Shown here: piece after piece, positions 8,846 through 24,655 of the stretch
Layout: each line of letters starts with the position of its first letter
How positions within the stretch are numbered: position 1 is the first letter of the stretch
DNA from: Acidobacteriota bacterium
Lineage (GTDB): Bacteria > Acidobacteriota > Terriglobia > Terriglobales > Acidobacteriaceae
Assembly (NCBI GenBank): GCA_003225075.1
Contig: QIAP01000053.1
Location: 1-51,705, forward strand
Reading direction: 5' to 3'
Length of the DNA stretch: 51,705 nucleotides
Translations under genes and position numbers: made by a program
The notes under the pieces: generated by a model
What the model saw: only the letters and a program-made list of their open reading frames with translations
What the model was told of the DNA's origin: nothing
Databases searched by the model: none

Positions 8846-10168
8846 ATGCCTGACCTGACTTTTCTTTCAGCTACAGAAATGGCCAAGGGAATCCGCGAAA
8901 AACAACTTTCGCCTGTAGAACTGATCGAAGCGCATTTGAGCCGCATCGAAACGCTGAATCCCAAGATGAATGCATTTGTGCAACTAGCTGCCGAACGGGC
9001 TCGTAGCCAGGCGCAGGCCGCAGAAACAGCCGTAATGGGCGGTAAAGTTTGGGGGCCGCTACATGGCGTTCCAATCAGCATCAAGAGTTCGATTGAGGTC
9101 GCAGGTCTGCGCTGTGAGGCGGGCACGCGTCTGCGGGCAGGATTGGTTGCCGAGAAGGACGCTCCTCTGGTCGGACGACTACGGACTGCGGGAGCAATCA
9201 TTCTTGGAGTGACCAACACACCCGAACTGCTGATGGCCTGGGAGACAGATAATCTTTTATACGGACGAACGAATAATCCCTGGGATCTGGAGCGAGTGCC
9301 AGCGCATTTCAGCGGGATTTGCGGGCTGAAGCCAACTCCCGGTCGTATCCCGTCCACTGGACATTATCCTAACTCGGTTGGCCCCTTTGCGCTCTTAGGC
9401 GTCGTTGGGCCGATGGCGCGCGCCGTTGCAGATTTGCAAATGTTATTTGACGCGATGGCCGGACCGGATGTCGGAGATCCTTGCTCTGCCCCCGTTCTAC
9501 TGCGCGACATTTCCCCTGCAGACCTGAAGAACATTAGGATCGGCTACTTCGAAGATGATGGCCGCACATCTGTTACTCCGGAGACGCGTGCTGCCGTTCG
9601 CACGGCTGCAGAGTCGTTGAAGCGGGCGGGTTTCGATGTATTTCCATTTCGTCCCGATGGTCTCGAACTCGCGCGGCAGCTCTGGTGGAAATTGTTCGGT
9701 ACCGCAGGCGGAATGTTACTGGGATCCTTAACCAGAGGTCATGAGTCAGAGTTGAGCCCGATCCTTAGAGAGTTTTCGAGTTGGGTAGCAGCGCAGCCGC
9801 CACACACCGGCGAATCGCTGCTTCAGACTTGGGTGGAGCGAGACATCGTTCGTCTTCAGGTGCTCACACAGATGCGAGAGTTCCCAATTCTCCTATGCCC
9901 GGTGGCTTCGGTCCCTGCCTTTCGACACGGCGAACGCAGTTGGGTAATCGAGGGTAAGAAGGTGGACTATTTGGACGCTTGGAGCTATTCGGAATGGTTC
10001 AATTTGCTAGGGAATCCCGCCGCGGTGGTGCCAGTCGCCCGCTCACCTGAGGGATTGCCGATCGGAGTGCAGATCGTGGGCCGTCCTTGGGAGGAAGAGA
10101 TCGTGCTTGCGGTCGCTGCCGCCCTGGAAAGGGAACGCGGAGGATGGCGGCAGCCACCACTAAATTGA
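8846..10168 (+). CDS. Amidase-signature-family protein lacking its active-site serines
   Basis: 440 residues. The N-terminal half matches amidases well (LSPVELIEAHLSRIETLNPK, GVPISIKSSIEVAG with catalytic Lys K80, GRTNNPWDL), and the rest (VPAHFSGICGLKPTPGRIPS, GNPAAVVP, PIGVQIVGRPW) also matches. Between them the amidase signature itself is missing: NPWDLER joins directly to VPAHF at residues 150/151, near base 9296. Family members have about 31 more residues here, carrying GGSSGG (cis-serine) and GGSIR (nucleophile). The frame is kept. The product should therefore be inactive as an amidase unless the gap is a sequence assembly error. Neighbours give no clue to a substrate. Confidence 0.85.
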   Translation: MPDLTFLSATEMAKGIREKQLSPVELIEAHLSRIETLNPKMNAFVQLAAERARSQAQAAETAVMGGKVWGPLHGVPISIKSSIEVAGLRCEAGTRLRAGLVAEKDAPLVGRLRTAGAIILGVTNTPELLMAWETDNLLYGRTNNPWDLERVPAHFSGICGLKPTPGRIPSTGHYPNSVGPFALLGVVGPMARAVADLQMLFDAMAGPDVGDPCSAPVLLRDISPADLKNIRIGYFEDDGRTSVTPETRAAVRTAAESLKRAGFDVFPFRPDGLELARQLWWKLFGTAGGMLLGSLTRGHESELSPILREFSSWVAAQPPHTGESLLQTWVERDIVRLQVLTQMREFPILLCPVASVPAFRHGERSWVIEGKKVDYLDAWSYSEWFNLLGNPAAVVPVARSPEGLPIGVQIVGRPWEEEIVLAVAAALERERGGWRQPPLN

Positions 10169-10317: not shown

Positions 10318-12756
10318 ATGCCACGTTCTGAAGTTTCCGCCAGCCATCGCGTACTTCCTGGGCTGCTCGTCTTCTTGGTGTTTTCTGCCGCTTATCTTTA
10401 CAGCTTTCCTCAATCAAATGTCTTTTACGCGGTAATCGTGCTGCTGCACGTGACGGCGGGCATCGGTGCCAGTCTCCTGCTCGCTCTTCACCTGTTGCAC
10501 TTCTTGCGCAATGGCAAGTTTCACTCACGGCTGGGTTGGCTTCTTATCGCAGTCGGAGCTGTTCTAGGTTTGGCGCTCATCTACACCGGCACTCCCCGGT
10601 CGGAATGGAACTGGCTGTACGCACACATCGTTCTTAGCTTGGCGGGAGCGGGAATCATATTTGCAGACTGGGTGGGCAAACGTGGCTGGTTGCGCGCTGG
10701 CACGAGCCGAGCGATTGTTAGGGTTACGATCTGCCTGGCCGTTCTCGTGGTTTTGGGAGCGGCAGCTCGGTACCTGCGACACTCACGCTGGCAGACCAGA
10801 GCACGAATTCAGAACCCATTAATGCCGGCCGCTAACATGGACGGCGAAGGTGACGGGCCCAACGGCCCATTCTTCCCCAGTTCTGCACAAGTGTTCGGCG
10901 GCAAGAAAATTCCCAGCAAGTTCTTCATGGAGTCAGACTCCTGCCAGCGCTGCCACCAGGACATTTACAACCAGTGGTACAGCTCTGCCCATCATTTTTC
11001 GTCATTCAACAATCAGTGGTATCGCAAAAGTATTGAGTATATGCAGGACACCATTGGCACTCGTCCTTCAAAATGGTGCGGTGGTTGCCACGATCCCGCC
11101 GTGCTCTATGCCGGCAAGATGGATACGCCCATCAAACAGATTGTGCACACGCCGGAGGCCCAGGCTGGGCTGGGCTGCATGATGTGCCACTCTATTGCCG
11201 AAGTGAAGAGCACTATGGGGCAGGGGGATTTTTACCTAGAGTATCCAACGCTGCACGAGTTGGCGGCCAGCAAGCATCCGCTTGTGCGCACCTTGCATGA
11301 TTTCCTTATCAACTTGAATCCCGAGCCGCATCGCCGCGTCTTTCTGAAGCCGTTCATGCGCGATCAGACGGCGGAATTCTGCTCTGCCTGTCACAAGGTG
11401 CACCTCGACGTTCCGGTAAACCACTATCGTTGGATACGCGGATTTAATGAGTACGACAATTGGCAAGCCAGCGGCGTCTCTGGACAGGGCGCGCGGTCTT
11501 TCTATTACCCTGCTAAGCCGTCACAGTGCGCTGACTGCCATATGCCGTTACAACAATCGAAGGATGCAGGTAACAATAACGGTTTCGTGCATTCCCATCG
11601 ATTTCCGGGGGCTAATACAGCTCTGCCGATTGCCAACGAAGATGCAGAACAATTAAAGATCAGCGAAGACTTCCTAAAAAATAAGATCGTGAGCGTGGAT
11701 ATCTTTGCCTTGTCTCCAGCCCGCTCGGAAGCGAAGCCTGCTGTGGTCAATCAATCTGAAATAGCCACTACGTTCGCCGTCGGAGAGGAAGCCGAGGCAA
11801 AGATTACGCCCGGCGCTGTGGGGGAAGCGGCGCCCGTTACCGCTCCGCTGAATCGTGTGCAACCAGCGCTTCGCCGCGGCGACAACGTGCGGGTTGACGT
11901 GGTGGTGCGCACAAAGAAAATCGGCCACTTCTTTCCCGGCGGCACGGTCGATGCGTACGACACCTGGCTCGAACTTAAGGCTACGGATGATAAGGACCAA
12001 ACAGTCTTTTGGAGCGGGAAAATCGAGGACCAAGGGAAAGGTCCAGTCGAGAAGGGCGCGCACTTTTACCGCTCGCTTCAAGTGGATGCTCATGGAAATC
12101 CGATCAACAAGCGCAACGCCTGGGCATCGCGAGCGGTTGTCTATGTGCATCTGATACCACCAGGCGCCGCTGATACCGTCCACTACCGGCTGCATGTTCC
12201 AGAAAACGTGGGTAACAAAATTACGCTTCATGCCCGACTGTGCTATCGCAAGTTTGCCTGGTGGAACACGCAGTTCGCTTTTGCCGGCATGTCCGACCCA
12301 AAACAGCCTGAGCACGAGACCACCCCCGACTATGACGACTCTAAGTTTGTCTTCAGCGCTCCTCTGACGGGAGTCTCTGCCAGGCGTGAACAAATTCCTG
12401 ATCTGCCCACAGTGGTTCTCGCCGAAGATGAAGTTACGTTGCAGACGGTGCCCCAGTCAGCATCTACACCAGAACCCAAGGTAGCCTTGCAACCGGAGGA
12501 CTGGCAACGCTGGAACGATTACGGAATCGGGTTGCTTCTGCAGGGCGATCTAAAAGGGGCGCAGGCTGCGTTTCAGAAGGTGACAGAAATCGATCCGAAG
12601 AATCCTGACGGCTGGGTGAACATTGGCCGGGCTGCTGTCCAGGAAGGTGATATGGATCGCGCGCGCGCCGTGCTGGAGAAAGCGCTGTCGCTTAGTCGTG
12701 ATCTCGCGCGTGCCCATTTCTTTTATGCCAAGGTAATGCGTGCTGATGGTAATTAG
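10318..12756 (+). CDS. Membrane-anchored multiheme c-type cytochrome with TPRs, cut short by TAG
   Basis: 812 residues as read. About five hydrophobic helices (residues 12-150) include several histidines (LHVTAGIG, LHLLHFL, YAHIVL) that could bind b heme. A periplasmic region follows with five c-heme motifs: CQRCH (about 208), CGGCH (257), CMMCH (287), CSACH (355) and CADCH (404). A beta-rich segment then leads to TPR units from about residue 720 (PEDWQRWNDYGIGLLLQGDL). The frame ends at TAG 12754-12756 in the middle of a TPR, and TPR coding resumes in the same frame directly after it. Probably an electron-transfer or redox enzyme exposed to the periplasm. No Shine-Dalgarno sequence is evident. 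It heads the block of FG-GAP/UnbV genes. Confidence 0.88.
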   Translation: MPRSEVSASHRVLPGLLVFLVFSAAYLYSFPQSNVFYAVIVLLHVTAGIGASLLLALHLLHFLRNGKFHSRLGWLLIAVGAVLGLALIYTGTPRSEWNWLYAHIVLSLAGAGIIFADWVGKRGWLRAGTSRAIVRVTICLAVLVVLGAAARYLRHSRWQTRARIQNPLMPAANMDGEGDGPNGPFFPSSAQVFGGKKIPSKFFMESDSCQRCHQDIYNQWYSSAHHFSSFNNQWYRKSIEYMQDTIGTRPSKWCGGCHDPAVLYAGKMDTPIKQIVHTPEAQAGLGCMMCHSIAEVKSTMGQGDFYLEYPTLHELAASKHPLVRTLHDFLINLNPEPHRRVFLKPFMRDQTAEFCSACHKVHLDVPVNHYRWIRGFNEYDNWQASGVSGQGARSFYYPAKPSQCADCHMPLQQSKDAGNNNGFVHSHRFPGANTALPIANEDAEQLKISEDFLKNKIVSVDIFALSPARSEAKPAVVNQSEIATTFAVGEEAEAKITPGAVGEAAPVTAPLNRVQPALRRGDNVRVDVVVRTKKIGHFFPGGTVDAYDTWLELKATDDKDQTVFWSGKIEDQGKGPVEKGAHFYRSLQVDAHGNPINKRNAWASRAVVYVHLIPPGAADTVHYRLHVPENVGNKITLHARLCYRKFAWWNTQFAFAGMSDPKQPEHETTPDYDDSKFVFSAPLTGVSARREQIPDLPTVVLAEDEVTLQTVPQSASTPEPKVALQPEDWQRWNDYGIGLLLQGDLKGAQAAFQKVTEIDPKNPDGWVNIGRAAVQEGDMDRARAVLEKALSLSRDLARAHFFYAKVMRADGN

Positions 12757-13101
12757 TTTCTGCAACGAAAATACAGCGAAGCGGTGAAGGTGCTGGAATC
12801 AGTACTTGCCATCGATCCCGAGGATCTTCAGGCGCACTATAATCTGATGCTTTGCTATAACGGTTTGGGAGACGAGACAAAAGCCAAAGAGCATCAGGCC
12901 AGATATCTTCGTTTCAAAGCTGACGAAGCCGCACAGGCGATCACAGGTCCCTACCGCCAGCTCAATCCCGAAGATAACAATGAGCGGCAAGCAATCCACG
13001 AACACGTGTCCGTGCCGCTTGAGGTTTCTAAAACCGGCCGCTCGGCTGAGCAAAGCTCGGCACGCGTTAGAAGTGCCGCATCCCTCGGGGCCTCAAGATA
13101 A
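12757..13101 (+). pseudogene. In-frame continuation of the cytochrome TPR domain after the TAG
   Basis: Directly after the TAG the same frame encodes FLQRKYSEAVKVLESVLAID, then PEDLQAHYNLMLCYNGLGDE and a charged tail ending at TAA 13099-13101. These are the second part of one TPR and a whole further TPR, so this is the proper C-terminus of the cytochrome protein. Counting the 34-residue repeat, about 28 codons are missing at the junction, and the join of TA (from the expected Tyr codon) with G explains the TAG. A GTG or ATG start inside (for example 12784) could in principle yield a small separate peptide, but I find no ribosome binding site for it. The stop overlaps the next ATG (TAATG). Confidence 0.75.
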
Positions 13102-14840
13102 TGCAGATCATCGCTGTACTTTTTTTCACTCTAATAACCCTTCCTCTTGCTGCCCAGAGCATTCAATTCCGCGACATTACTTCTCAAGCCGGTATTCACT
13201 TTATTCATAACAACGGAGCCTTCGGCAAGAAGTGGCTGCCCGAGACCATGGGCCCAGGCTGTGCCTTTATTGATTATGACAATGATGGCTATCCCGACAT
13301 TCTGCTGGTGAATGGAGAAGATTGGCCGGGGCACCAGCGCACGTTGTCCACGCTGAAGCTTTATCACAATAATCACGACGGCACTTTCACCGATGTGACG
13401 CGCAAAGCCGGGCTCGCGGTCTCCATCTTTGGCCTCGGTGTTGCCATCGGAGACTACGATAATGACGGCTACGATGACATCTTCATCAGCGCTCTTGGCC
13501 AGAGCCGGTTGTTTCATAACAATGGCAATGGCACTTTCGCGGATGTGACCAAAGCGGCTGGTCTGTGGGGTCCGAACGAGTTTTCCACGGGCGCCGCCTG
13601 GGTGGACTACGATCGCGACGGGAAACTCGACCTGATCGTCGCCAACTATGTTCAGTGGTCGCCGCAGACGGACATCTATTGCACTCTCGATGGTGTTCAC
13701 AAGTCTTATTGCACACCGGAGTCCTACAAGGGATCTTCGGCGCGGCTCTGGCACAATCTGGGCAGCGGCAAGTTTGAGGACGTCACACAGAAAGCTGGAC
13801 TCCACGACCCGACCTCGAAAAGTCTTGGCGTTGCGATTCTTGATTACAACGGCGATGGCTGGCCCGATATTTTGCTGGCCAACGATACCCAACCCAACAA
13901 GCTCTATCTGAACAGGAAGGACGGCAGTTTCGAGGAGCGCGGGGTCGCTGCCGGTATCGCTTTCAGTGAAGATGGGATTGCCCGCGCCGGGATGGGTGTG
14001 GACACCGCTGATTATGACCGCTCGGGATATCCCAGCATTCTAATCACGAATTTTGCCAACCAAATGCTCTCGCTCTATCACAACGAAGGCAATGGACTAT
14101 TTGTGGACGAAGCGCCGCGGTCAGAAGTGGGACGAGCTACGCTGGTGACACTCGGTTTCGGATGCTTCTTTTTCGATTACGATAACGATGGCTGGCCCGA
14201 CATATTTGTCGCCGATGGCCACATTGAAAATGAAATCGAGCGAGTGCAGAAGCGTGTTGCGTACGCCGAGCCGCCCCATCTGTTCCGTAATCTCGGTGGC
14301 GGGCGGTTTCAGGAAGTGACCCAGCAAATGGGCACCGCCTTTGCAAGTCCGAAAGTGGCGCGTGGGGCTGCCTACGCCGATATTGATAACGACGGCGCGC
14401 TCGATGTTCTGCTGACAACCAATGCGGGGCGCACATGGTTATTTCACAACGAGGGTGGCGCCAACCACAGTCTGCGGGTAAAGCTGTCGGGGACCAAATC
14501 CAACCGCGACGGCATCGGTGCGATCGTCCGCGTCAACCTGGGGAACGGGAAACAGTGGCAGATGCTGCGCAGCGGATCGAGCTACCTCTCGCAAAGCGAA
14601 CTGGTGCTGACGTTTGGATTAGGCTTGCAAGAAAAAGTTGATAATCTCGAAGTGCAATGGCCCAGCGGGCAACTGGATAAACTGGCAAATGTTCCAGGCG
14701 ACCAGACAGTTACGATTCAGGAAGGAAAGGGCATTATTTCGTCACGCCATTATGGCAAGCCCGCGAACGGTAATAGAGAACGAAAGATTGGGAAGAGCAC
14801 TGCCTCAGTCGCGCGAAAAAACTCGGCAAGAACCAACTGA
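13101..14840 (+). CDS. Secreted FG-GAP/VCBS seven-repeat protein with ASPIC/UnbV domain (CRTAC1-like)
   Basis: 579 residues with a signal peptide (MQIIAVLFFTLITLPLAAQS). Seven calcium-loop motifs of the DxDxDG type can be counted (IDYDNDGYPD, GDYDNDGYDD, VDYDRDGKLD, LDYNGDGWPD, ADYDRSGYPS, FDYDNDGWPD, ADIDNDGALD), each followed by LFHN.GNGTF-type strands, suggesting a seven-bladed beta-propeller. The ASPIC/UnbV domain (about 460-550) ends the fold: GIGAIVRV, SGSSYLSQSE, VQWPSG. A two-cysteine loop lies between repeats three and four. The start overlaps the end of the cytochrome frame by one base (TAATG), so it is in the same transcript. Biochemical role unknown; probably extracytoplasmic binding. 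Confidence 0.9.
   Translation: MQIIAVLFFTLITLPLAAQSIQFRDITSQAGIHFIHNNGAFGKKWLPETMGPGCAFIDYDNDGYPDILLVNGEDWPGHQRTLSTLKLYHNNHDGTFTDVTRKAGLAVSIFGLGVAIGDYDNDGYDDIFISALGQSRLFHNNGNGTFADVTKAAGLWGPNEFSTGAAWVDYDRDGKLDLIVANYVQWSPQTDIYCTLDGVHKSYCTPESYKGSSARLWHNLGSGKFEDVTQKAGLHDPTSKSLGVAILDYNGDGWPDILLANDTQPNKLYLNRKDGSFEERGVAAGIAFSEDGIARAGMGVDTADYDRSGYPSILITNFANQMLSLYHNEGNGLFVDEAPRSEVGRATLVTLGFGCFFFDYDNDGWPDIFVADGHIENEIERVQKRVAYAEPPHLFRNLGGGRFQEVTQQMGTAFASPKVARGAAYADIDNDGALDVLLTTNAGRTWLFHNEGGANHSLRVKLSGTKSNRDGIGAIVRVNLGNGKQWQMLRSGSSYLSQSELVLTFGLGLQEKVDNLEVQWPSGQLDKLANVPGDQTVTIQEGKGIISSRHYGKPANGNRERKIGKSTASVARKNSARTN
13272..13290 (+). repeat. 19-nt calcium-loop repeat, copy 1
   Basis: GATTATGACAATGATGGCT encodes DYDNDG plus the first base pairs of the next codon. 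The identical 19-mer recurs at 16512-16530 in the TPR/FG-GAP gene, and near-copies occur at most other calcium loops of the three FG-GAP genes. It reflects repeated protein motifs and could serve as a recombination target between paralogues. Confidence 0.85.
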
Positions 14841-14861
14841 CCACGCAGAGTTTCTCAATTC

Positions 14862-17800
14862 ATGAAATCAACTCGTTCCATCGTTGTGTTGATTGCTCTT
14901 TCCCTTGTAGCCTTTGGCATCTTTGCCGCCGCGCCACAAAAGCCTGCGACAGCAGGGAGCGGCTCCGACAAATCAATCGAAGCCGCGCGCCTCAACAATC
15001 TTGGCGTGGCCTACATGAACCAGCAGCTCTTCGAAAAGGCATTGAAGGAATTTGAAGGGGCTGCGGCCCTTGACCCCAAGCAGCAAAGTGCGCAGATCAA
15101 TCGTGGCATCGCCCTGCTCAACCTTCAACGTGTGGACGAGGCCAAACGTATTCTGGAAGAAGCGATCAAACGTGATCCCAAGGATGCGCATGCCTGGTAC
15201 AATCTCGCACTGCTCTACAAGAACACCAGTGACACGAAGTCTGCCGCCGATGCCTTCCGCCATGTCGCCGAGATAGATCCGAGTGATCCCGACGCCTGGT
15301 ATTTCTTAGGTTCGGTGTATGCGCAGGCCAAGCAATATCCGCAAGCGATTGACGCGTTCCAGCACGCGCTCAAGTTGAACCCGCTGCACGCCTCGGCGGA
15401 ATTCGGACTGTCGCGCGCTTGCCAGCAGTCTGGCGATACGCCGCAGGCTCGCCAGCACCTGGCGCGCTTCCAGTACATCACACAGAACAAACTCGGATCA
15501 CCCATCAGTCTGGCGTACGGGGAGCAGGGTCAGTACTCGCGCGCTGAAGATTCAGCAGCGGCGCCAGCCAAGGTGCCACCCGCGATTTCTGTGCGCTTTG
15601 TTGATGCCACAGAGTTATCAGGTCTGTCAGCCATGCCCGAAGCCACCATGCTGCAAGGAACGACCCGTCCTCCCGCAGAGGGTTCGGGCGCGTGCTTCCT
15701 TGACTACGACGGTGATGGACGCTTGGATCTGTTTTTGCCGGGCGGCGGCAAGTCAGGAGGTATGGCACTGTACCACAACCGGGGTGGCGGTAAGTTCACT
15801 GATGTGACCCGGGAAGCAGGCTTGGATCCGGATTTACGAGCGATCAGCTGTACAGCCGGGGACTACGACAACGATGGCGCTACCGACCTGGCCGTGAGCA
15901 CCTTCGGAAGTCTTTTTCTCTTCCACAACGAGAAGAACGGCAAGTTTAAGGACGTTACGCAAGATGCAGGCGTGCGGTCAGATGGTACCATCCTGGGGCT
16001 AACGTTCGTTGACTATGACCATGACGGCGACCTCGATCTCTATGTGACGCGCGAGGCAGGCTTTCCGAACTCGAAGCTTCCTGAGAAATCTACAGGTCAG
16101 CCCCAGCCGCATTTCGCCAATGTAATGTTCCGCAACAATGGTAACGGCACCTTTACGGACATAACTGAATCGATCGGCCTCGCAGGCGGCACGCGCAACA
16201 TTTCCTCCACTGGGACCGACTATAACAATGATCGTGCAGTCGATATCGTCGTTACCGGTGATGTACCCACGATTTTCGAGAATCCCCGCGAAGGCAAATT
16301 CTTGTCACGCAAGCCGTGGTCCACACCAATGCCGGCCCCGACCGAAGGGGTCGCCGTCCTCGATTTCAACCACGACGGTTGGATGGGCCTTGCCTTTACT
16401 CACGCGGGTTCGCCCGGACTAACCCTCTGGCGTAACAACCAGGGCAAGAACTTCGAGGCCGTGGAACTTCCGAAGACCAACTGGGTGCGCGCCTGGGGCG
16501 TCGCCGCGATCGATTATGACAATGATGGCTGGACTGATCTCGTAGCGGTTGGCGAAACTGCTGATGGACGCGGCGAAGCCCGTCTCTTCCGTAATCTCGG
16601 TCCTGACGGATTTGAAGACGTCACGGCTGACGTCGGTCTCGACAAGATCAATTGGAAAGACCCGCGGGCAGTGATTACCGGCGATTACGATGGTGACGGC
16701 GCCACCGATTTGCTGATCACTCAGAATCACGGTCCTGCCGTTCTTCTGCGCAACCAGGGCGGCAACAAAAATCATTGGCTGCGGCTTGTGCTTAAAGGTC
16801 TGAACGACAACAAAAGCGGCATCGGCACCAAAATTGAAGTATTCGCAGGTGCTAACCGGCAGAAGTTTGAGATTGCAGGATCCTCTGGTTATCTGGGGCA
16901 GAACTCGACAGAAATCACGGTTGGACTTGGTCAGGAAAAGCAAGCCGATGTGGTTCGCATGCTTTGGCCGACTGGCATTGTGCAGGACGAGGTTGAAGTC
17001 CCGGCAGATCACCAGCAGGCCTACACGGAAATCGACCGTCGTGGCAGCTCTTGTCCTACGCTTTTCGTCTGGGATGGAAGAAGATTCCACCTAGTTTCTG
17101 ACTTGCTTGGGGCGGGGGTGGTCGGTCACTGGGTCGGACGTGGCCAGCGAAATATCGCGCGCCCAACTGAGTATGTCAAAGTCGATAGGAACATGATACG
17201 AGAGAAAGACGGCAAGTTGAGCTTTCGGCTGATGGAGCCAATGGAGGAAGTTGTTTATCTCGACCGAGTCCGTCTGCTTGCAGTGGATCATGCCAGCGAC
17301 GTCGACGTATATCCTAATGAATATTTCGCGAGCAACCCGCCGTATCCGACATTCAAAGTGATCGGCAGCCGCAACGCCACTCCACCGGCAGGCGCATGGG
17401 ACGAACACGGTCACAACGTTTTGCCTGACTTGCTTGCTCATCGCTACTTCGGCGATTTCGACTTGCTGCCGTTTAAAGGATTCACTAAACCGCACAGCCT
17501 GGAACTCGATCTCGGCGAGCCTTACCGTGGAGGCCCCCTGCGTTTGCTCATGCATGGTGAAATCGAATACTTCACGGCCACTGGCATGTACGCTGCGGAT
17601 CAGGCCGGTATTCAAGCCACGGCGCCTTACGTTGAAGCGATGGACGCGAAGGGAAAGTGGGTTCGTGTCATTGATGACATGGGGTTCCCTGCCGGTCTGC
17701 CGCGCATGACTGTGGCCGATTTGAGCGGAAAATTGCTGCCAGGCACGCAGCATATTCGCATCTCGACCAACCTGCAGATTTATTGGGACAACATTCTCAT

Positions 17801-18335
17801 CGATCGCACCCCGCAAGATGTCAGCGTGCGTTTGGCGCCCCTGTCTTTGCGAAGCGCGGATTTGCATTTCCACGGCTATCCACGCCAGATCGAAGATCAG
17901 CCGCCGGGGAATGTGAAATACGTCTATGAAGAAGTCAGCAGCACCGGCCCCTACGCGCGTCAGGCAGGCACTTACACCCGGTACGGCGACGTTCGTGAAC
18001 TATTGGCCGATTTTGACGATCGTTTGGTGGTTTTCGGATCAGGGGAAGAGGTCGCTCTCGAATTCGATCCGACTTCGTTGCCTACGCTACCCAAAGGCTG
18101 GGTCCGGGACTATTTCTTCCTGGCCAACGGTTACGAGAAGGACATGGATTTCTACGCGGCAGAGGGAAACACCGTCGATCCGCTGCCGTTTCGGGCGATG
18201 CAGACTTATCCCTATCCTGGCAAATCCTTTCCGCTGGATGATGAGCACCTAAACTACTTCCTGATCTACAACACTCGCCACGTGTCGGGGAACGAGCCCC
18301 GCGGATATCGGTACGAGTATCAGACGCCAAAATGA
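14862..18335 (+). CDS. Secreted TPR + FG-GAP/UnbV protein with large unrecognised C-terminal region
   Basis: 1157 residues with a signal peptide (MKSTRSIVVLIALSLVAFGI). TPR units (about four) cover roughly residues 40-210. Seven DxDxDG-type loops follow from about 280 to 625 (LDYDGDGRLD through GDYDGDGATD), one degenerate (TDYNNDRAVD). An ASPIC/UnbV-like segment (SGIGTKIEV, GSSGYLGQNSTEI, MLWPTGIVQDEV) ends near 725. The last 430 residues, starting at SCPTLFVWDGRRFHLVSDLL, form a region I cannot place in a named family; it is rich in aromatics and beta-type strands (HIRISTNLQIYWDNILI). The gene starts 21 bases after the previous stop. Possible scaffold of a surface or periplasmic complex with its neighbours. 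Confidence 0.88.
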   Translation: MKSTRSIVVLIALSLVAFGIFAAAPQKPATAGSGSDKSIEAARLNNLGVAYMNQQLFEKALKEFEGAAALDPKQQSAQINRGIALLNLQRVDEAKRILEEAIKRDPKDAHAWYNLALLYKNTSDTKSAADAFRHVAEIDPSDPDAWYFLGSVYAQAKQYPQAIDAFQHALKLNPLHASAEFGLSRACQQSGDTPQARQHLARFQYITQNKLGSPISLAYGEQGQYSRAEDSAAAPAKVPPAISVRFVDATELSGLSAMPEATMLQGTTRPPAEGSGACFLDYDGDGRLDLFLPGGGKSGGMALYHNRGGGKFTDVTREAGLDPDLRAISCTAGDYDNDGATDLAVSTFGSLFLFHNEKNGKFKDVTQDAGVRSDGTILGLTFVDYDHDGDLDLYVTREAGFPNSKLPEKSTGQPQPHFANVMFRNNGNGTFTDITESIGLAGGTRNISSTGTDYNNDRAVDIVVTGDVPTIFENPREGKFLSRKPWSTPMPAPTEGVAVLDFNHDGWMGLAFTHAGSPGLTLWRNNQGKNFEAVELPKTNWVRAWGVAAIDYDNDGWTDLVAVGETADGRGEARLFRNLGPDGFEDVTADVGLDKINWKDPRAVITGDYDGDGATDLLITQNHGPAVLLRNQGGNKNHWLRLVLKGLNDNKSGIGTKIEVFAGANRQKFEIAGSSGYLGQNSTEITVGLGQEKQADVVRMLWPTGIVQDEVEVPADHQQAYTEIDRRGSSCPTLFVWDGRRFHLVSDLLGAGVVGHWVGRGQRNIARPTEYVKVDRNMIREKDGKLSFRLMEPMEEVVYLDRVRLLAVDHASDVDVYPNEYFASNPPYPTFKVIGSRNATPPAGAWDEHGHNVLPDLLAHRYFGDFDLLPFKGFTKPHSLELDLGEPYRGGPLRLLMHGEIEYFTATGMYAADQAGIQATAPYVEAMDAKGKWVRVIDDMGFPAGLPRMTVADLSGKLLPGTQHIRISTNLQIYWDNILIDRTPQDVSVRLAPLSLRSADLHFHGYPRQIEDQPPGNVKYVYEEVSSTGPYARQAGTYTRYGDVRELLADFDDRLVVFGSGEEVALEFDPTSLPTLPKGWVRDYFFLANGYEKDMDFYAAEGNTVDPLPFRAMQTYPYPGKSFPLDDEHLNYFLIYNTRHVSGNEPRGYRYEYQTPK
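16512..16530 (+). repeat. 19-nt calcium-loop repeat, copy 2
   Basis: Exact copy of the 19-mer at 13272-13290, encoding the sixth FG-GAP loop (IDYDNDGWTD) of the 1157-residue protein. Confidence 0.85.
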
Positions 18336-18354
18336 CTCTCGTTTTCTGGATAGA

Positions 18355-20160
18355 ATGCAGTTATTCATGAGAGTTCGTATCCCAGGAAAAGGGTACTTCC
18401 CTTGCATCCTCTGTTTATGTGTCCTCGCATCTACGCTTCTGGCGCAGGAATCGCACCACTTACCGGCGAAAGCGAATCCTCCATCGCAGCTCACAAAGGC
18501 CGGCACTGGCAGGGACAACAAACCCGCAGTACCAGTCTTCAAGGATATTGCCCTTGAAGCAGGGCTCACGGTTTCTCACCTGTCGTCCAATGAAAAGCGG
18601 TACGTAATCGAATCCATGAGCGGAGGAGTCGGCCTGTTCGACTGCGACAACGATGGCAAACTCGACATCGTGATGGTGAATGGCTCGACTGTTGATCGCT
18701 ACCGCCAGGGCGGCGACCCATTGGTTACCCTGTGGCATCAGGACGCCGACCTGAAGTTCACAGATATCACACAGAAGGCTGGCCTCACACGCAAGGGTTG
18801 GGGTATGGGCGTCGCCGTCGCTGATTTCAACAACGACGGGTTGCTTGATCTTTACGTCACCGGGTACGGCGGCAACGCGCTTTACCGTAACAAGGGCAAC
18901 TGCACTTTTGAGGACGTTACCGACAAAGCCGGTGTACGCGCCGGGGGCTTCTCAACCGGTGCTGCCTGGGCCGATTACGACCGCGACGGCAATGTGGACC
19001 TATTTGTTTCGCGTTATGTGCACGTGGATATCGATCACCTCCCCGTCTTTGGCAGCAGCAAGTTTTGCAATTTCAAGGGAGTGCCTGTGCAGTGCGGCCC
19101 TTGGGGCATGCAGGGCGAAAGCGATCTCCTCTTCCACAACAAGGGAGACGGCACGTTCGAAGAAGTGTCCAAGAAAGCGGGAGTCAGCGATCCCAACGAA
19201 TACTATGGCCTTGGGGTGACCTGGGGCGATTACGACAATGATGGCTGGCCTGATCTGTTTGTAGCTGATGATGCCACGCCCAATTATTTGTACCACAACA
19301 ACCACGATGGAACTTTCACCGATGTTGGCATGGTCAGCGGAATCTCGCTGAGTGGTGAAGGCCAGGCGCAAGGCTCCATGGGGGTAACTTGGGGCGACTA
19401 CGATCATAGCAGGCGGCTCTCTATGTTCATTACTGAATTTGCCGACCAGCCTAATACCCTCTATCGCAATTTGGGCAAGTCAGGCTTTGAGGACGCTAGT
19501 TTCCGCGCCCAATTGGGCCAGCCGAGCATACCTTATGTCGGCTGGGGTACGTCATTCTTCGACATGGATAACGATGGTTGGCTCGATCTCTTCGTTGCCA
19601 ACGGACACGTCTATCCTCAAATGGACAGCGTTTCGGGCAGCGCGGCCTATGCCGAACCCATGCTGCTGCATCGCAACAACCGCGACGGCACCTTTGCGGA
19701 AGTTCCGACTCCAGCGGGACTAGCGGCCATGCCGCGGAGATCCCGCAGGGGCGCGGCATTCGGCGATATCGCCAATAACGGGAACGTCGATATTTTCATT
19801 CTGAACGTGGGTGAGCCGCCGTCATTGTTATTGAACACAAATCAAAATTCCAATCACCGCGTTTTGTTCAAGCTGGAGGGTACGCGGAGTAATAGAGCAG
19901 CGATCGGAGCGCGGGTGACGATTCACGCCGGAGGGATGACGCAGTTTGACGAAGTCCACGGCGGCGGGAGTTATCTCTCGCAAAATGATCTTCGCCTGCA
20001 TTTCGGGCTGGGATCCGCCGACAAAATGGATTCTGTCCAAATTCGATGGCCCAGCGGCAAAGTGGAAGAGTTGAAAGATGTAGCAGCAGATGAAATCTAT
20101 ACTCTTGTAGAGGGACAGGGGATCAAGGATACAAAACCGCTCTCGTCTCCTGGAAAATGA
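18355..20160 (+). CDS. Secreted FG-GAP/VCBS protein with ASPIC/UnbV domain (CRTAC1-like), second copy
   Basis: 601 residues; the leader MRVRIPGKGYFPCILCLCVL then ASTLLAQ is a signal peptide (an internal ATG at 18367 starts MRVRIP and is equally possible). Seven calcium-loop positions are visible (FDCDNDGKLD, ADFNNDGLLD, ADYDRDGNVD, GDYDNDGWPD, the degenerate GDYDHSRRLS, FDMDNDGWLD, GDIANNGNVD). The same two-cysteine insertion as in the 579-residue paralogue lies between repeats three and four. The UnbV domain is at the C-terminus (AAIGARVTIHAGG, GGGSYLSQNDLRLHFGLG, IRWPSG). It is a diverged paralogue of the gene at 13101. The gap to the preceding gene is 19 bases, consistent with one operon; no homologue function is known. 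Confidence 0.9.
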   Translation: MQLFMRVRIPGKGYFPCILCLCVLASTLLAQESHHLPAKANPPSQLTKAGTGRDNKPAVPVFKDIALEAGLTVSHLSSNEKRYVIESMSGGVGLFDCDNDGKLDIVMVNGSTVDRYRQGGDPLVTLWHQDADLKFTDITQKAGLTRKGWGMGVAVADFNNDGLLDLYVTGYGGNALYRNKGNCTFEDVTDKAGVRAGGFSTGAAWADYDRDGNVDLFVSRYVHVDIDHLPVFGSSKFCNFKGVPVQCGPWGMQGESDLLFHNKGDGTFEEVSKKAGVSDPNEYYGLGVTWGDYDNDGWPDLFVADDATPNYLYHNNHDGTFTDVGMVSGISLSGEGQAQGSMGVTWGDYDHSRRLSMFITEFADQPNTLYRNLGKSGFEDASFRAQLGQPSIPYVGWGTSFFDMDNDGWLDLFVANGHVYPQMDSVSGSAAYAEPMLLHRNNRDGTFAEVPTPAGLAAMPRRSRRGAAFGDIANNGNVDIFILNVGEPPSLLLNTNQNSNHRVLFKLEGTRSNRAAIGARVTIHAGGMTQFDEVHGGGSYLSQNDLRLHFGLGSADKMDSVQIRWPSGKVEELKDVAADEIYTLVEGQGIKDTKPLSSPGK

Positions 20161-20240: not shown

Positions 20241-20511
20241 TCCGAAACAATTTATCATCGACTGGAAACGATTAATCGTTTTCGAATCATTGCCAAAACA
20301 GTTTGGTGCCGATAATTCGGCACATCCCATGTTTTTTCGATTGACAGGCCTACGAGAGCGTATGAGAATCTGCCCAATCGTTGAATCCATTCGTTTACGT
20401 TCGAATGTTTTCGCGAGTACAGTTCTTCTGCTCCACGTCCGGAGCAGCCTTCCCCCAAGTACCCCACCATCGCTTGCGATGGTGGGGTTTTTCAGTTTAT
20501 AGAGGAGCAGA
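20241..20511 (+). promoter_or_regulatory. Structured leader of the amino-acid permease (candidate attenuator)
   Basis: This 270-base region lies between a consensus -10 box and the permease start. It holds several perfect stems: GTGCCGA/TCGGCAC (20306-20312, 20317-20323), CATTCG/CGAATG (20388-20393, 20402-20407), CTGCTCC/GGAGCAG (20428-20434, 20441-20447) and a terminator at 20462-20492. The GGAGCAG sequence recurs in the ribosome binding site (20504-20510), so CTGCTCC can pair with either copy. I do not recognise a T-box, lysine or glycine riboswitch in it. Confidence 0.55.
20462..20492 (+). terminator. Intrinsic terminator directly upstream of the permease
   Basis: CCCCACCATCGC (20462-20473) pairs perfectly with GCGATGGTGGGG (20476-20487), followed by five T. 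The permease ATG is only 20 bases after the T-run, with its ribosome binding site in between, leaving no room for a promoter after the hairpin. It could also end the FG-GAP transcript 300 bases upstream. Confidence 0.88.
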
Positions 20512-21897
20512 ATGGCAACTTCGACAACTGACACCACTTCCAGCGCGCCACGTTTGAAGCGCGTTCTGACGCTGTGGGACCTGATCTTTTATGGGATTGT
20601 CCTAATCCAGCCCATCGCTCCCGTGCCCCTGTTCGGGGTGGCGCAAAAACTTTCAGATGGACATTTTGCCACAATCATTTTGATCGCGATGTTCGCGATG
20701 ATGATCACTGCCGTGAGTTACGGGCGCATGGCGGCGCTTTATCCTTCCGCGGGTTCGGCATACACCTACGTCGGAAAGGGCCTCAACCCGCACCTTGGGT
20801 TCCTGGCGGGATGGGCGATGTTCCTTGATTACCTACTCCAACCTCTGATCAACACGGTTTGGATGTCAACGGCCCTGCACGAGCGATACCTGCCCCAGGT
20901 TCCATTTATGGCGTGGGCCGCGATCATTGCCGGCATCATCACTTTGCTCAACCTGCGCGGAATCCGTTCGTCAGCACGGGCCAATAAGGTCCTGCTATTT
21001 TTTATGTTTATCGTCGTCGGTTTCTTCATCGTGCTAGCTGTACGCTATCTGTTTTACTCACAAGGATTGAGGGGACTCTTTTCCATCCAGCCTTTCTACG
21101 ATCCCAAAACCTTTAACTCGCATCGGATTTGGACCGCAACCTCTTTTGCCGCTCTCACCTATATCGGCTTTGACGGTGTCACCACGTTGGCCGAGGACGT
21201 TGAAAACCCGAAGCGCAACGTTCTGCTGGCAACCGTCCTCGTTTGTGTTTTTACCGGCGTGTTCGGGGGGTTGGAGGTCTATCTGGGGCAGCGGGTTTGG
21301 CCGGACTGGCACACCTTCCCTAATCTCGAGACGGCGTTTATGGACATCTGTCGTCGCGTGGGTGGCTCACTACTTTTCAATGCTATGGGCGTAATCCTCA
21401 TCCTGGCGGCCTTTGGCAGCGCTTTGACCGGGGGCTTGGGAGCGGCACGATTGCTCTTCGGTATGGGACGCGACAATGTATTGCCCCGCAAAATCTTTGG
21501 ACATTTGAGTCCTGGCAGCAGCACACCAACCTACAACATCATCGTCATTGGATTGCTAGCCTTCGGTGGCGCTGTGATGTTGAACCGTGTGGGCAACGCT
21601 TACGAGCACGCGGGCGAGTTGCTCAATTTTGGCGCGTTTCTCGCTTTCATGGGAGTCAACCTGGCAACGTTCTGGCAATTCGCGGTGGTCGCGAAACCGG
21701 GATACAAACGGCGCATACTCGTGGATGCCATTCTGCCGCTCATTGGCTTTGCCTTCTGTGCGCTTATCTGGTGGAACCTCAATAACCTGGCCAAGACCGT
21801 GGGTGGAATATGGTTTGCCGTTGGCCTGCTCTACGTAGGAATCAAGACGCGCGGCTTCCGCACGGCACCGGTCATGATCGATTTCAGCGAATCATAA
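20512..21897 (+). CDS. APC-family amino acid/polyamine permease
   Basis: 461 residues with about twelve hydrophobic helices, an inner-membrane secondary transporter. The N-terminal LTLWDLIFYGIVLIQPIAPV replaces the usual glycine-rich first helix; YPSAGSAYTYVGKGLNPHLG (helix 2-3) and YIGFDGVTTLAEDVENPKRN (helix 6) are the hallmark APC segments. A strong Shine-Dalgarno sequence (AGAGGAG) stands five bases before the ATG. The gene is alone, behind a structured leader with a terminator, so its expression is probably conditional. Substrate is not predictable; amino acids or amines are likely. It ends convergent to the GH2 gene, 61 bases away. Confidence 0.93.
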   Translation: MATSTTDTTSSAPRLKRVLTLWDLIFYGIVLIQPIAPVPLFGVAQKLSDGHFATIILIAMFAMMITAVSYGRMAALYPSAGSAYTYVGKGLNPHLGFLAGWAMFLDYLLQPLINTVWMSTALHERYLPQVPFMAWAAIIAGIITLLNLRGIRSSARANKVLLFFMFIVVGFFIVLAVRYLFYSQGLRGLFSIQPFYDPKTFNSHRIWTATSFAALTYIGFDGVTTLAEDVENPKRNVLLATVLVCVFTGVFGGLEVYLGQRVWPDWHTFPNLETAFMDICRRVGGSLLFNAMGVILILAAFGSALTGGLGAARLLFGMGRDNVLPRKIFGHLSPGSSTPTYNIIVIGLLAFGGAVMLNRVGNAYEHAGELLNFGAFLAFMGVNLATFWQFAVVAKPGYKRRILVDAILPLIGFAFCALIWWNLNNLAKTVGGIWFAVGLLYVGIKTRGFRTAPVMIDFSES

Positions 21898-21958
21898 CCG
21901 GCAGCGCGCGAAACAGGGTTCTGGCGAATAAAAAATTGTTAAGGCTAGAAATAGCAAT

Positions 21959-24655
21959 TTACTGCACGTTCCAGCCGGACACTTCGACACTGGGCTTCGC
22001 TGTTCCTAGATCCACGGTACGATAGGTTGCGCTAAATTCGCGGCTTTCGCCGGGAAGCAGCGAGACATAGTTGTCCTGCCACAAAACCGGCAGAATTTCT
22101 TCACCACCCCCGCCTTTGTCCACTTTCATCCGAACGAAGAACGCCACGCTCTTGCTGGGATTAGCGAGAGTGACATGCGTGACCGAGTCTGCACCTTTGC
22201 GATCGGTGCGGGACGCTACTTTCAGCTTGATCTTGGGCAATTGCAAAAGCGCAGTGTAGTCTGCATAGGAAGCGGTTGGGGTTGTATACCACGTCGATTT
22301 CTCCCAATCCAAGGTTTCAGGCTTGGTGGAGAGCCAATAGAAATTCGAGCTGACCAGTTTTCCGCCCGCATCCTCCAGTCTCAGCGCCAGGAAGTAGGTT
22401 GGCGTCAGAGCTTGAATTTCCGGCAGTTCGAAAATTTTCTGCGTCCCATCAGCGGCAATATCCACAGTGGCGTCCTTGGAAAATTTCTCTGAGAAATCAA
22501 GGTTGTAAACCTTGGCTGTAAGTTTCAGTCCTTTGACGTCCTGATACTTACTGTTGACCAGCCAGACGGAATGGTCGTCATAGGCGTAAACCGGATGCAG
22601 CGGTTCCATCGCTTTCTTGGCGCCAAAATAGCCGCCTGCAGGCCGCAGGAAGTAGTCATAGAGATGCCAAATCATGGAAGGCCACGCGTTGTTAAGCATC
22701 CATTGGATCACGCCCGTCGAGACGTACTTATTACGGCTGTAGGCCTCATACATGGCGCGGATGCCCTCGTAATTCATTAGTTGCGCTTTGAGTACGAAGT
22801 CCTGAAGGTTATCCGCCTGACCGTAGCGATTGTTCAAGGCGTTCACGTATACGTTCATGTTCTTGAACTGTCCACCGCCCGCATGAAAATTCCAGTAGTC
22901 ATCAATCGGCCACAGGTGGTCCTTGGGCAGCATTCTTTGCAAACTCTCAATGGGAGGAACTGCCGGGCCTGGGCTGGTTTCCGTATTGAAGCCATAAGCC
23001 CCGCCGCACCCCCCTTGATTGCACTTGGTAGTTCGATTCGGGTTGTCGCTGTCCTGCAGCCAATACCCTGGCGCGACGTATTCATAAGGGCCAGTCATTT
23101 TTACGCCACTGTCGCCGCTGACCGCCGCGGGCTTGGCAGTGGCCGATGAAACAACCGGATTAGGCCAGCGAAGTTGTTTCTCCACATTGAGATATGTTTC
23201 TTCTACGTCCGGCGGGGGCGGATTATCGCTGCCATTCAGCCACATCACCAGGCTGGGATGGCTGCGCAACCGATAGATCTGGTCCTGCAGCGAATTTTTT
23301 GCGATGTCGTAATCCTGCGGGCTCCACTTGGACCAATGTTCCCAGTGATCACAGCAACACCACCCCGCCATAATCAAAATTCCTTGTTGATCAGCGAGAT
23401 TTAAAAACTCCTCGGTCTCCAGCTTACCTTCCAGACGAATCGTATTCAGACCCATATCTTGTACATAACGGAATTCATCATGAAGGCGTTGCGAGTTCTC
23501 GCGCAGCAGCAGGTCGGGCGACCAGCCGCCGCCGCGAATAAGAATCTTCTTTCCGTTTATCACAAACGCACGCCTGTCCGTCGCAAGCAACTCCGACGTG
23601 ACCTCGCGGATGCCGAAACGTGTGTCCGATTTGTCGGAAGTCTTGTGGTCCACATCGAATTCCAGGTTCAAAGTATAAAGATTCGGGGTCCCCATTTGTG
23701 CCGGCCACCACAGGCGTGGGTTAGCGAGATTCAACTGGGGAAATTTGTCAGGCTCGAACGTTACATCCTTGGATTCGCCTGCGGCCAGTTCCACAGCTTG
23801 TGCGAATTCTATGTTTTCGATCTTGCCTTTTAGTGACCCCTTGACGGGTTGATTGCCTCCATTTTTTAGCAGAGCGGTGACCGTCAAGTGGGCAGGATCG
23901 TTGCTGGGAGAATCAAAATGCGTAAGTACGGTTGGATAGCGGATGGCCACGGGCGCGCTCGTCGTAAAGTAAACGTCACGCCATAACCCCATCTCTTTAT
24001 CCGGAGGCGCGGGATTCCAATCCACAAATGTGATTGCGAGGTCATTCTCGGTGGGTGCGTACACCTCAACCGCGAGTACATTCGTCGCCCCTGGCTTGGC
24101 TGTGTCGGTAACGTTAAATTCGTATGTTCGCCAGGCGCCGGCCACATTGTCCGACTTCGCGATCTGCTTGCCGTTGAGCCAGATGTTAGCGCGATAGTTG
24201 ATCCCGCGAAAATTTAACCAAACCGTTTGACCCTTGTAGCCTGCCGGCAAAACAAACTGCTTGCGGTACCACCAAGGCACAGCGAACGGGCTGTCCGCCG
24301 GCATTGGTAAGTTGGAGAAATTGCTGCCAATCGGGTAACTAACACCCGGATATTGCCGCAAATTCATGCCGAAACCCGGGTCGGGATAGATTTTTTCTTT
24401 AACCAATGCGGCGACGACGATTGTGGGCACGGATGCCGCATACCAGGATTTGGGTTGGAAACCTGGGGTGGAGATCTCTTCGCCTTTCTGTTCCACTTTG
24501 GCGGAGGACTGCAGCATCCAGCCGTCAGTCAAGGCAAACTTGGCCTTGGATTGAGTCTGCGCGGAATGTTTCACCTGTCCGGAGAGTGCCGGGATCAAGG
24601 CAATAAAAAAAGACAGCAGGAAGAGTAAGCTAGGGCTAAAGATGCGAATCTTCAT
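21959..24655 (-). CDS. Secreted glycoside hydrolase family 2, exo-beta-D-glucosaminidase-like
   Basis: 898 residues with a signal peptide (MKIRIFSPSLLFLLSFFIAL, cleavage after ALSG). The order is GH2 sugar-binding domain (about 60-235), immunoglobulin-like domain (240-350), TIM barrel (from ILIRGGGWSPDLLLRE, about 371), then further beta domains. The putative acid/base is D477 in WLNGSDNPP and the nucleophile E559 in GFNTETSPGP, the arrangement of CsxA-type exo-beta-D-glucosaminidases, not the NE pair of beta-galactosidases. It would release glucosamine from chitosan oligomers outside the cytoplasm. The HHC-rich stretch GWCCCDHWEHW is shared by that subfamily. No transport genes adjoin. An inverted repeat about 105 bases upstream may regulate it. 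Confidence 0.9.
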   Translation of the reverse strand: MKIRIFSPSLLFLLSFFIALIPALSGQVKHSAQTQSKAKFALTDGWMLQSSAKVEQKGEEISTPGFQPKSWYAASVPTIVVAALVKEKIYPDPGFGMNLRQYPGVSYPIGSNFSNLPMPADSPFAVPWWYRKQFVLPAGYKGQTVWLNFRGINYRANIWLNGKQIAKSDNVAGAWRTYEFNVTDTAKPGATNVLAVEVYAPTENDLAITFVDWNPAPPDKEMGLWRDVYFTTSAPVAIRYPTVLTHFDSPSNDPAHLTVTALLKNGGNQPVKGSLKGKIENIEFAQAVELAAGESKDVTFEPDKFPQLNLANPRLWWPAQMGTPNLYTLNLEFDVDHKTSDKSDTRFGIREVTSELLATDRRAFVINGKKILIRGGGWSPDLLLRENSQRLHDEFRYVQDMGLNTIRLEGKLETEEFLNLADQQGILIMAGWCCCDHWEHWSKWSPQDYDIAKNSLQDQIYRLRSHPSLVMWLNGSDNPPPPDVEETYLNVEKQLRWPNPVVSSATAKPAAVSGDSGVKMTGPYEYVAPGYWLQDSDNPNRTTKCNQGGCGGAYGFNTETSPGPAVPPIESLQRMLPKDHLWPIDDYWNFHAGGGQFKNMNVYVNALNNRYGQADNLQDFVLKAQLMNYEGIRAMYEAYSRNKYVSTGVIQWMLNNAWPSMIWHLYDYFLRPAGGYFGAKKAMEPLHPVYAYDDHSVWLVNSKYQDVKGLKLTAKVYNLDFSEKFSKDATVDIAADGTQKIFELPEIQALTPTYFLALRLEDAGGKLVSSNFYWLSTKPETLDWEKSTWYTTPTASYADYTALLQLPKIKLKVASRTDRKGADSVTHVTLANPSKSVAFFVRMKVDKGGGGEEILPVLWQDNYVSLLPGESREFSATYRTVDLGTAKPSVEVSGWNVQ

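Follow-up and report, generated by a model that had tools for sequence, protein, structure and literature searches.

Here we analysed a 51.7-kb stretch of DNA (the window), contig C123 of a draft acidobacterial genome of 4.79 Mb in 259 contigs, in which a membrane multihaem cytochrome, CYT, is followed by the genes of three FG-GAP/UnbV propeller proteins, A, BIG and B. As the initial annotation stated, the four genes lie in this order on the same strand at 10318–20160. Our preferred explanation, to which we assign a probability of roughly 55%, is that CYT, A and BIG form a cell-envelope module in which a membrane redox protein works with periplasmic UnbV propellers, the membrane subunit being exchangeable. 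This reading is based on the domain content, on conserved adjacency, on sister operons with another membrane subunit, and on homology to the UnbV/UnbU pair of enediyne clusters. Additionally, we infer a haem b in CYT, quinol as the electron donor, and direct docking of the propellers on CYT. The closest relatives that carry names are metagenome assemblies designated Acidobacteria gp1, Candidatus Sulfotelmatobacter, Acidobacteriaceae, and Terriglobia. The features of the module are as follows (TM, transmembrane; TPR, tetratricopeptide repeat).

10318–12756, + strand: CYT, membrane multihaem cytochrome; 812 residues as sequenced, with five predicted TM helices, five CXXCH motifs, a GHFFPGG-containing beta region, and TPRs
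10339–10803, + strand: CYT membrane domain; model helices at residues 8–29, 35–65, 68–90, 94–120, and 129–162; invariant His44 (TM2) and His103 (TM4), candidate bis-His ligands of a haem b
10942–11721, + strand: CYT pentahaem c domain; CXXCH at residues 209, 254, 287, 355, and 404; extra invariant His at 225, 338, 362, and 427
12754–12756, + strand: in-frame TAG at the junction of an 84-nucleotide deletion, by comparison with relatives
12757–13101, + strand: conserved continuation of the CYT frame past the TAG, with a TPR and a ...NNERQ.IHEH... tail
13101–14840, + strand: A, 579 residues; predicted exported seven-loop FG-GAP propeller with UnbV/ASPIC; core partner of CYT
14862–18335, + strand: BIG, 1157 residues; predicted exported protein with TPRs, FG-GAP propeller, UnbV, and a C-terminal region without a Pfam match
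17370–17819, + strand: candidate CBM35/CBM32-like (galactose-binding-like) beta sandwich in the C-terminal region of BIG, residues about 837–986
18355–20160, + strand: B, 601 residues; predicted exported FG-GAP propeller with UnbV, 41% identical to A; accessory, seldom adjoining BIG in relatives

Conserved linkage of CYT with UnbV propellers

The initial annotation proposed a gene-neighbourhood survey, which we carried out on the best 80 of at least 587 confirmed CYT relatives. One of these loci is labelled Acidimicrobiia, and the rest carry acidobacterial names. Neighbouring genes were recognised by their similarity to proteins of the window and not through Pfam matches, and loci without room for a given gene were dropped from its count (13 of the 80 for A, 28 for BIG, 33 for B, and 8 for an amidase gene upstream of CYT). 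Of the 67 loci that extend 1.5 kb or more past CYT, 64 have an A-like UnbV gene 3' of it, on the same strand and within 1 kb. The gap between the two genes is 10 nucleotides or less in 45 of these 64, although five of the 45 are large overlaps from mechanical start calls. Furthermore, BIG is found in 35 of the 52 loci with at least 5.5 kb downstream.

The same association is seen across 100 genomes, the source genome included. A CYT match at E 1e-20 occurs in 67 of them, and a long CYT orthologue (at least 45% identity, contig-end fragments included; G057 counted on 113 residues) in 56. The C-terminal region of BIG occurs in 62 genomes when the distant BIG2 type is included. Both proteins are present in 53 genomes, CYT only in 3, BIG only in 9, and neither in 35 (Fisher p 3.5e-15, a test that treats related genomes as independent, with shared ancestry as a caveat). 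In other words, BIG accompanies CYT in 53/56 genomes, compared with 9/44 genomes without CYT. Collectively, these counts support a conserved redox/UnbV module, in which CYT–A is the core, BIG is a frequent partner, and B and the amidase are accessories. B, which had been counted as part of the system, adjoins BIG in only 4 of 47 loci, and a four-gene core that includes it was rejected on this ground. In a further arrangement, a second A-like UnbV gene lies just 5' of CYT, with a longer CYT–A gap and no BIG in the stretch (L129, L132, L135–L138, L140, L142, L144, L146, and L150, several of them labelled gp2).

Based on a Pfam scan of ten window proteins (6.3–26.9 kb), A, BIG, and B all match UnbV_ASPIC (PF07593; 72.4, 50.4, and 91.1 bits, respectively, against a cut-off of 23.4) and FG-GAP_3, and BIG also contains TPRs. 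Each of them has a hydrophobic signal-like N-terminal segment and no later TM-like segment, and no CXXCH motif was found in any of the three. A and B are indeed paralogues, with 41% identity over 541 columns. Seven calcium-loop positions had been assigned to each propeller; A has seven clean ones and BIG seven with one degenerate, whereas B has six by a loose pattern (two degenerate by a strict one) and a seventh visible by eye near residue 470. Moreover, A matches the solved structure of human CRTAC1 (PDB 9etn, E 2.2e-23), and its likeness to the human and bacterial CRTAC1 proteins lies in this sequence match. BIG is, as described earlier, a 1157-residue TPR-FG-GAP/UnbV protein with a distinct end: its last 440 residues lack a Pfam match, and phmmer found no match of the C-terminal region among PDB sequences. 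The model of this region (predicted local distance difference test, pLDDT, 66.8) aligns 115 residues with the CBM35/CBM32-like structure 2w47 (VIA Z 9.2, root-mean-square deviation 3.2), with many folds within 1 Z. In Foldseek, the best CBM32 row for the same model has E 3.3e-3, and the top rows have low TM-scores.

The CYT–A pairing exceeds chance expectation: in the 4.79 Mb of this genome only 11 UnbV matches occur, spread over seven contigs, and there are none in 14 well-known control genomes. ASPIC/UnbV is listed with the Solibacter paralogues in a passage of PMC3174227. Seven other UnbV genes of the genome were compared with B, and the one closest to it adjoins TPR, GH116, and outer-membrane-barrel genes. 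Because TPR proteins are frequent near UnbV genes here, the TPRs shared by CYT and BIG, previously taken as a sign of assembly, are a poor argument for it.

The initial annotation also gave gaps of 1–21 bases between the four genes. This is correct for A–BIG (21 nucleotides) and BIG–B (19 nucleotides), but CYT as annotated stops 344 nucleotides before A, and the small CYT–A spacing holds only if CYT is read past the in-frame TAG. The 812-residue frame ends at this TAG, and the same frame reaches a TAA at 13099–13101 that overlaps the ATG of A by one base. CYT is mostly about 900–1030 residues long in relatives, and alignment with them shows that the window copy lacks 28 residues (84 nucleotides), comprising most of one TPR, exactly at the TAG. 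The CYT frames of loci L124, L125, and L126 are likewise shorter. A separate 105-residue gene at 12784–13101 was rejected, since it is the continuation of the CYT frame. Read-through of the TAG as a code change was also rejected, because the TAG sits on the deletion junction and the upstream amidase gene has a similar deletion of 93 nucleotides; two such losses in one contig make decay or an assembly fault likelier than a code change. The alignments thus suggest that the CYT and amidase deletions arose by decay or misassembly.

CYT as a putative bc-type cytochrome

CYT matches Cytochrome_C554 (PF13435; 33.8 bits against a cut-off of 20.8) and TPRs in Pfam. Its CXXCH motifs number exactly five, and its hydrophobic segments would account for five TM helices, in agreement with its first description as a membrane cytochrome with five such motifs and TPRs. 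Among 37 CYT sequences, the invariant histidines are His44, His103, those of the five CXXCH motifs, and His225, His338, His362, His427, His537, and His622. A comparison of the haem domain with PDB sequences gave a single relative below E 0.1, a cytochrome c552 (5ze8; E 2.7e-6, about 93 positions). The structure matches listed for the AlphaFold2 model of CYT are TPR proteins.

In the membrane domain, only His44, His103, Leu20, Tyr26, Gly48, Gly84, and Gly91 are invariant among 20 sequences. The AlphaFold2 model has five long helices here, with His44 on helix 2 and His103 on helix 4; both are near the helix starts, and by topology both would be on the periplasmic side. A second histidine pair for a haem b was not found in this domain: His58 and His61 of the window protein vary among the 37 sequences, and no other histidine of the domain is invariant.

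The sister subfamily CYT3 has the same plan as CYT, with four or five CXXCH motifs. Across ten CYT3 sequences, four histidines of the membrane domain are invariant: a TM2 pair spaced by 18 residues and a TM4 pair spaced by 14. Pfam matches at E up to 1 include DUF4405 in five of the ten (best E 6e-7) and cytochrome b561 in three (best E 0.0014). Profile comparison by hhalign places each of the two CYT histidines opposite the first histidine of a CYT3 pair (P 2e-7). Since the CYT pair is aligned with the CYT3 pattern, CYT probably keeps one haem b, and the protein as a whole is probably a haem-b/multihaem-c (bc-type) fusion.

UnbV propellers beside other membrane and haem proteins

A second operon, reached through BIG-like genes that lie away from CYT, has the order BIG2, FG-GAP/UnbV protein, membrane protein (roughly 280–300 residues), and A2; it was found at L170–L174 and L177, not at L175. 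The BIG2 gene of L174 runs past the end of the stretch, and a lipobox is visible by eye in some A2 proteins. The membrane protein of these sister operons belongs to the NQR2/RnfD family (E 2.5e-7 to 1e-9 in three tested). All six strong RnfD-like matches among the 100 genomes sit in BIG2–fg–RnfD–A2 loci, and a seventh match is weak (34%, G050). No RnfD/UnbU-like gene was detected in the source genome by a match to the acidobacterial RnfD-like protein at E 1e-12. Beside the RnfD–UnbV operon of L171 (6587–10510) are genes for asparagine-synthase-like, weakly radical-SAM-like, and tryptophan-halogenase-like proteins, and the neighbours in L174 and L177 are of similar size; judging from these matches, the genes beside the L171 operon are possibly a biosynthetic cluster.

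Two cytochrome subfamilies related to CYT also have UnbV neighbours. For CYT3, an UnbV-like gene adjoins the cytochrome in 10/10 loci with room, not counting L199 and L206, whose sequence stops at the cytochrome; L087 shows the arrangement CYT3, two FG-GAP proteins, and BIG. CYT2, a mostly secreted five-haem relative, was sampled at 11 of 17 CYT2-type places, one of which (L205) ends at the cytochrome and was dropped. An UnbV-like gene is adjacent in 6 of the 10 CYT2 loci with room, and one more lies at about 1.2 kb.

In excerpts of PMC5181780, ten enediyne clusters are compared, and all share a five-gene enediyne polyketide synthase (PKS) cassette (E3/E4/E5/E/E10). When plasmids were searched by tblastn with the RnfD-like protein, 48 records matched, 45 of them from Streptomyces; of the 30 listed, 15 bear the annotation enediyne biosynthesis protein. 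The C-1027 plasmid SGLP1 carries, in this order, genes for two DUF1702 proteins, a CRTAC1-family protein, an RnfD-family protein, and a PKS. In S. clavuligerus, an RnfD-like gene labelled UnbU lies 3' of a VCBS-repeat gene. We take E3/E4/E5 to be UnbL/UnbV/UnbU, from which the Pfam name UnbV presumably derives; UnbU is the one of these labels seen. DUF1702, VCBS, and RnfD-family genes also occur together on a Serratia plasmid. Around a Metabacillus RnfD-like match, the annotation shows no gene of UnbV type. Sequence alignment pairs A with the C-1027 CRTAC1 protein (24%, E 8e-15) and the L171 RnfD-like protein with its C-1027 counterpart (27%, E 4e-14). In Pfam, the former C-1027 protein matches UnbV_ASPIC, and the latter matches NQR2_RnfD_RnfE just under the cut-off. 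The enediyne UnbV/UnbU pair resembles the sister operons, in which an UnbV propeller gene stands directly beside that of an NQR2/RnfD-family membrane protein; the proteins aligned with those of C-1027 are A of the window and the RnfD-like protein of a sister operon. In contrast, the membrane partner in the window is a multihaem cytochrome, and neither an enediyne PKS nor a DUF1702 gene was found among the ten window proteins scanned, to which this search was confined.

Passages of PMC12758564 place CRTAC1 genes beside hydrazine-synthase homologues in clades I–III, with cytochrome c554 domains in clade I. The window shares with these clusters a CRTAC1-family FG-GAP gene beside multihaem proteins; unlike them, it encodes a cytochrome with a membrane domain, and no alpha or beta-gamma homologue was found among the window proteins scanned. 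Hydrazine synthase itself was rejected, as no domain of its type (alpha, CCP-type gamma) was found in the four proteins, to which this search was confined. On a Rhodobacteraceae plasmid (L192, 4311–7255), a CRTAC1-family gene is convergent with a cytochrome-c peroxidase gene, and hence the two are not one operon. Among the open-access papers listed in literature searches, none describes a CYT–UnbV module in its title or in the opening of its abstract.

Proposed mechanism, alternatives and flanking genes

In the proposed mechanism, CYT would be an inner-membrane fusion of a cytochrome-b-like domain, holding one haem b between His44 and His103 near the periplasmic face, with a periplasmic pentahaem c domain and TPRs. 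Electrons from quinol would enter at haem b and travel along the c haems, five in number, as far as a site on or close to docked A, the direction of flow being provisional. The exported propellers, A almost constantly, BIG, and sometimes B, would dock on CYT and hold or present the substrate. BIG would add TPR contacts, and its CBM-like part may tether the module to a glycan-like polymer. The general design would be that of UnbV propellers with an exchangeable membrane redox protein, in which an RnfD/UnbU-family protein replaces CYT in the sister operons. The initial annotation had suggested a periplasmic or surface redox complex that binds a polymer or mineral. Its redox part agrees with the conserved redox/UnbV module, and its polymer part finds weak structural support in the candidate CBM35/CBM32-like sandwich (Z 9.2 at pLDDT 66.8), but no support was found for mineral binding or a surface location.

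We know of no established bacterial function for UnbV/CRTAC1 proteins, which range from bacteria to humans. More broadly and more tentatively, at somewhat less than even odds, UnbV/ASPIC propellers of this kind could be dedicated periplasmic partners of exchangeable membrane or haem redox proteins, namely the CYT1/CYT3 bc-type cytochromes, RnfD/UnbU, and hydrazine-synthase-like haem complexes. The enediyne UnbV/UnbU pair would then be a co-opted copy, and human CRTAC1, for which we know of no redox partner, a descendant without the redox module. If this is true, the acidobacterial CYT–A–BIG operon is a widespread, testable example of a redox-partner role for UnbV propellers. With UnbV tight against a probable haem-b/pentahaem-c protein, and the UnbU family in that place elsewhere, the function of UnbV/UnbU becomes directly testable, the question being whether UnbV propellers attach to a membrane redox protein and exchange electrons through it. 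In addition, CYT stands for a candidate class of quinone-linked multihaem cytochromes among soil bacteria.

Several observations weigh against a redox module of CYT, A, and BIG. Three of the 67 CYT loci lack a same-strand adjoining UnbV gene; in L117 the gene is inverted and further away, and in L157 and L165 none was seen. CYT2 has no UnbV neighbour in 3/10 loci with room. UnbV genes also occur on six other contigs of this genome; on the five sampled (all but C209), no open reading frame of at least 100 residues has a CXXCH motif. Three of these five carry outer-membrane barrel genes, several carry genes for TPR proteins, and one carries a GH116 gene, so UnbV is not redox-linked everywhere. 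The window's own copy of CYT is truncated, and the CYT model (pLDDT 66.5) has low confidence in the haem part, too uncertain for ligand geometry. Furthermore, neither Pfam nor the PDB gives a significant match to the CYT membrane domain by itself, so the haem-b case rests on CYT3; the best PDB sequence for CYT3, that of the formate dehydrogenase b556 subunit, falls short of significance (E 0.071).

Other roles for the same genes can be weighed on this evidence. The pentahaem domain could itself reduce or oxidise a nitrogen or sulfur small molecule in the periplasm, with the UnbV propellers shaping the complex as in hydrazine synthase; the relationship to cytochrome c552 and the CRTAC1 genes near hydrazine-synthase homologues, in the passages of PMC12758564, would fit such an enzyme. 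We consider this unlikely, because all five motifs are CXXCH and, together with several extra invariant histidines, would suit bis-His electron-transfer haems, and because the four proteins lack a hydrazine-synthase-type domain. Extracellular electron transfer, the direction in which the initial annotation leaned, would have CYT send electrons from quinol by way of the propellers to an outside acceptor, for example a mineral, humic matter, or a partner cell. This reading draws on the likeness of CYT to CbcL, described in parts of PMC12307469 as an inner-membrane bc-type cytochrome that oxidises menaquinol for extracellular respiration in Geobacter. Both would combine a haem-b membrane part, putative in CYT, with a multihaem c part and a proposed quinol oxidation, and CYT has the invariant histidines on two helices expected of a CbcL-like protein (His44 and His103 in 37/37 sequences, aligned with the diheme-like pattern of CYT3). 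This likeness is one of architecture and not of compared sequences, and CYT differs in its TPRs, its UnbV partners, and the single histidine pair of its membrane domain. Moreover, neither a second cytochrome nor an outer-membrane barrel with cytochromes, as in an MtrCAB-like porin-cytochrome conduit, was found among the ten window proteins (6.3–26.9 kb), and propellers without CXXCH motifs are unlikely to conduct electrons by themselves; extracellular transfer thus seems distinctly improbable.

We give equally little credence to polymer or glycan acquisition, in which UnbV and TPR proteins would serve nutrient binding and CYT would be a linked but separate respiratory protein. The OMP_b-brl_4, TPR, and GH116 genes beside UnbV elsewhere in this genome, the CBM-like sandwich of BIG, and the permease and glucosaminidase-like genes downstream are consistent with it, but no other link counted is as conserved as CYT–A, and a different UnbV set goes with an RnfD-type membrane protein. 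A module of CYT with its periplasmic UnbV propellers remains our preferred reading. Two further features flank it.

8846–10168, + strand: amidase (PF01425), upstream of CYT; window copy without 31 residues, including the GGSSGG signature
20461–20488, + strand: terminator-like hairpin 3' of B, 12 pairs with a T-rich tail

The 31 residues with the conserved GGSSGG signature are missing from the window amidase by comparison with 12/12 best relatives aligned, and this copy is probably inactive or misassembled. Of 72 loci, 28 have an amidase gene no more than 1 kb upstream of CYT, and such a gene adjoins BIG in loci without CYT (L171, L175, L180, and L181). Promoter- and terminator-like sites are no commoner in the sequence than in shuffles. 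The hairpin between B and the permease gene, whose stem is the longest of 14 sites, is a plausible terminator. Finally, an amino-acid permease gene and an exo-beta-glucosaminidase-like GH2 gene (20512–24655) lie 3' of the module, here and in many relatives.

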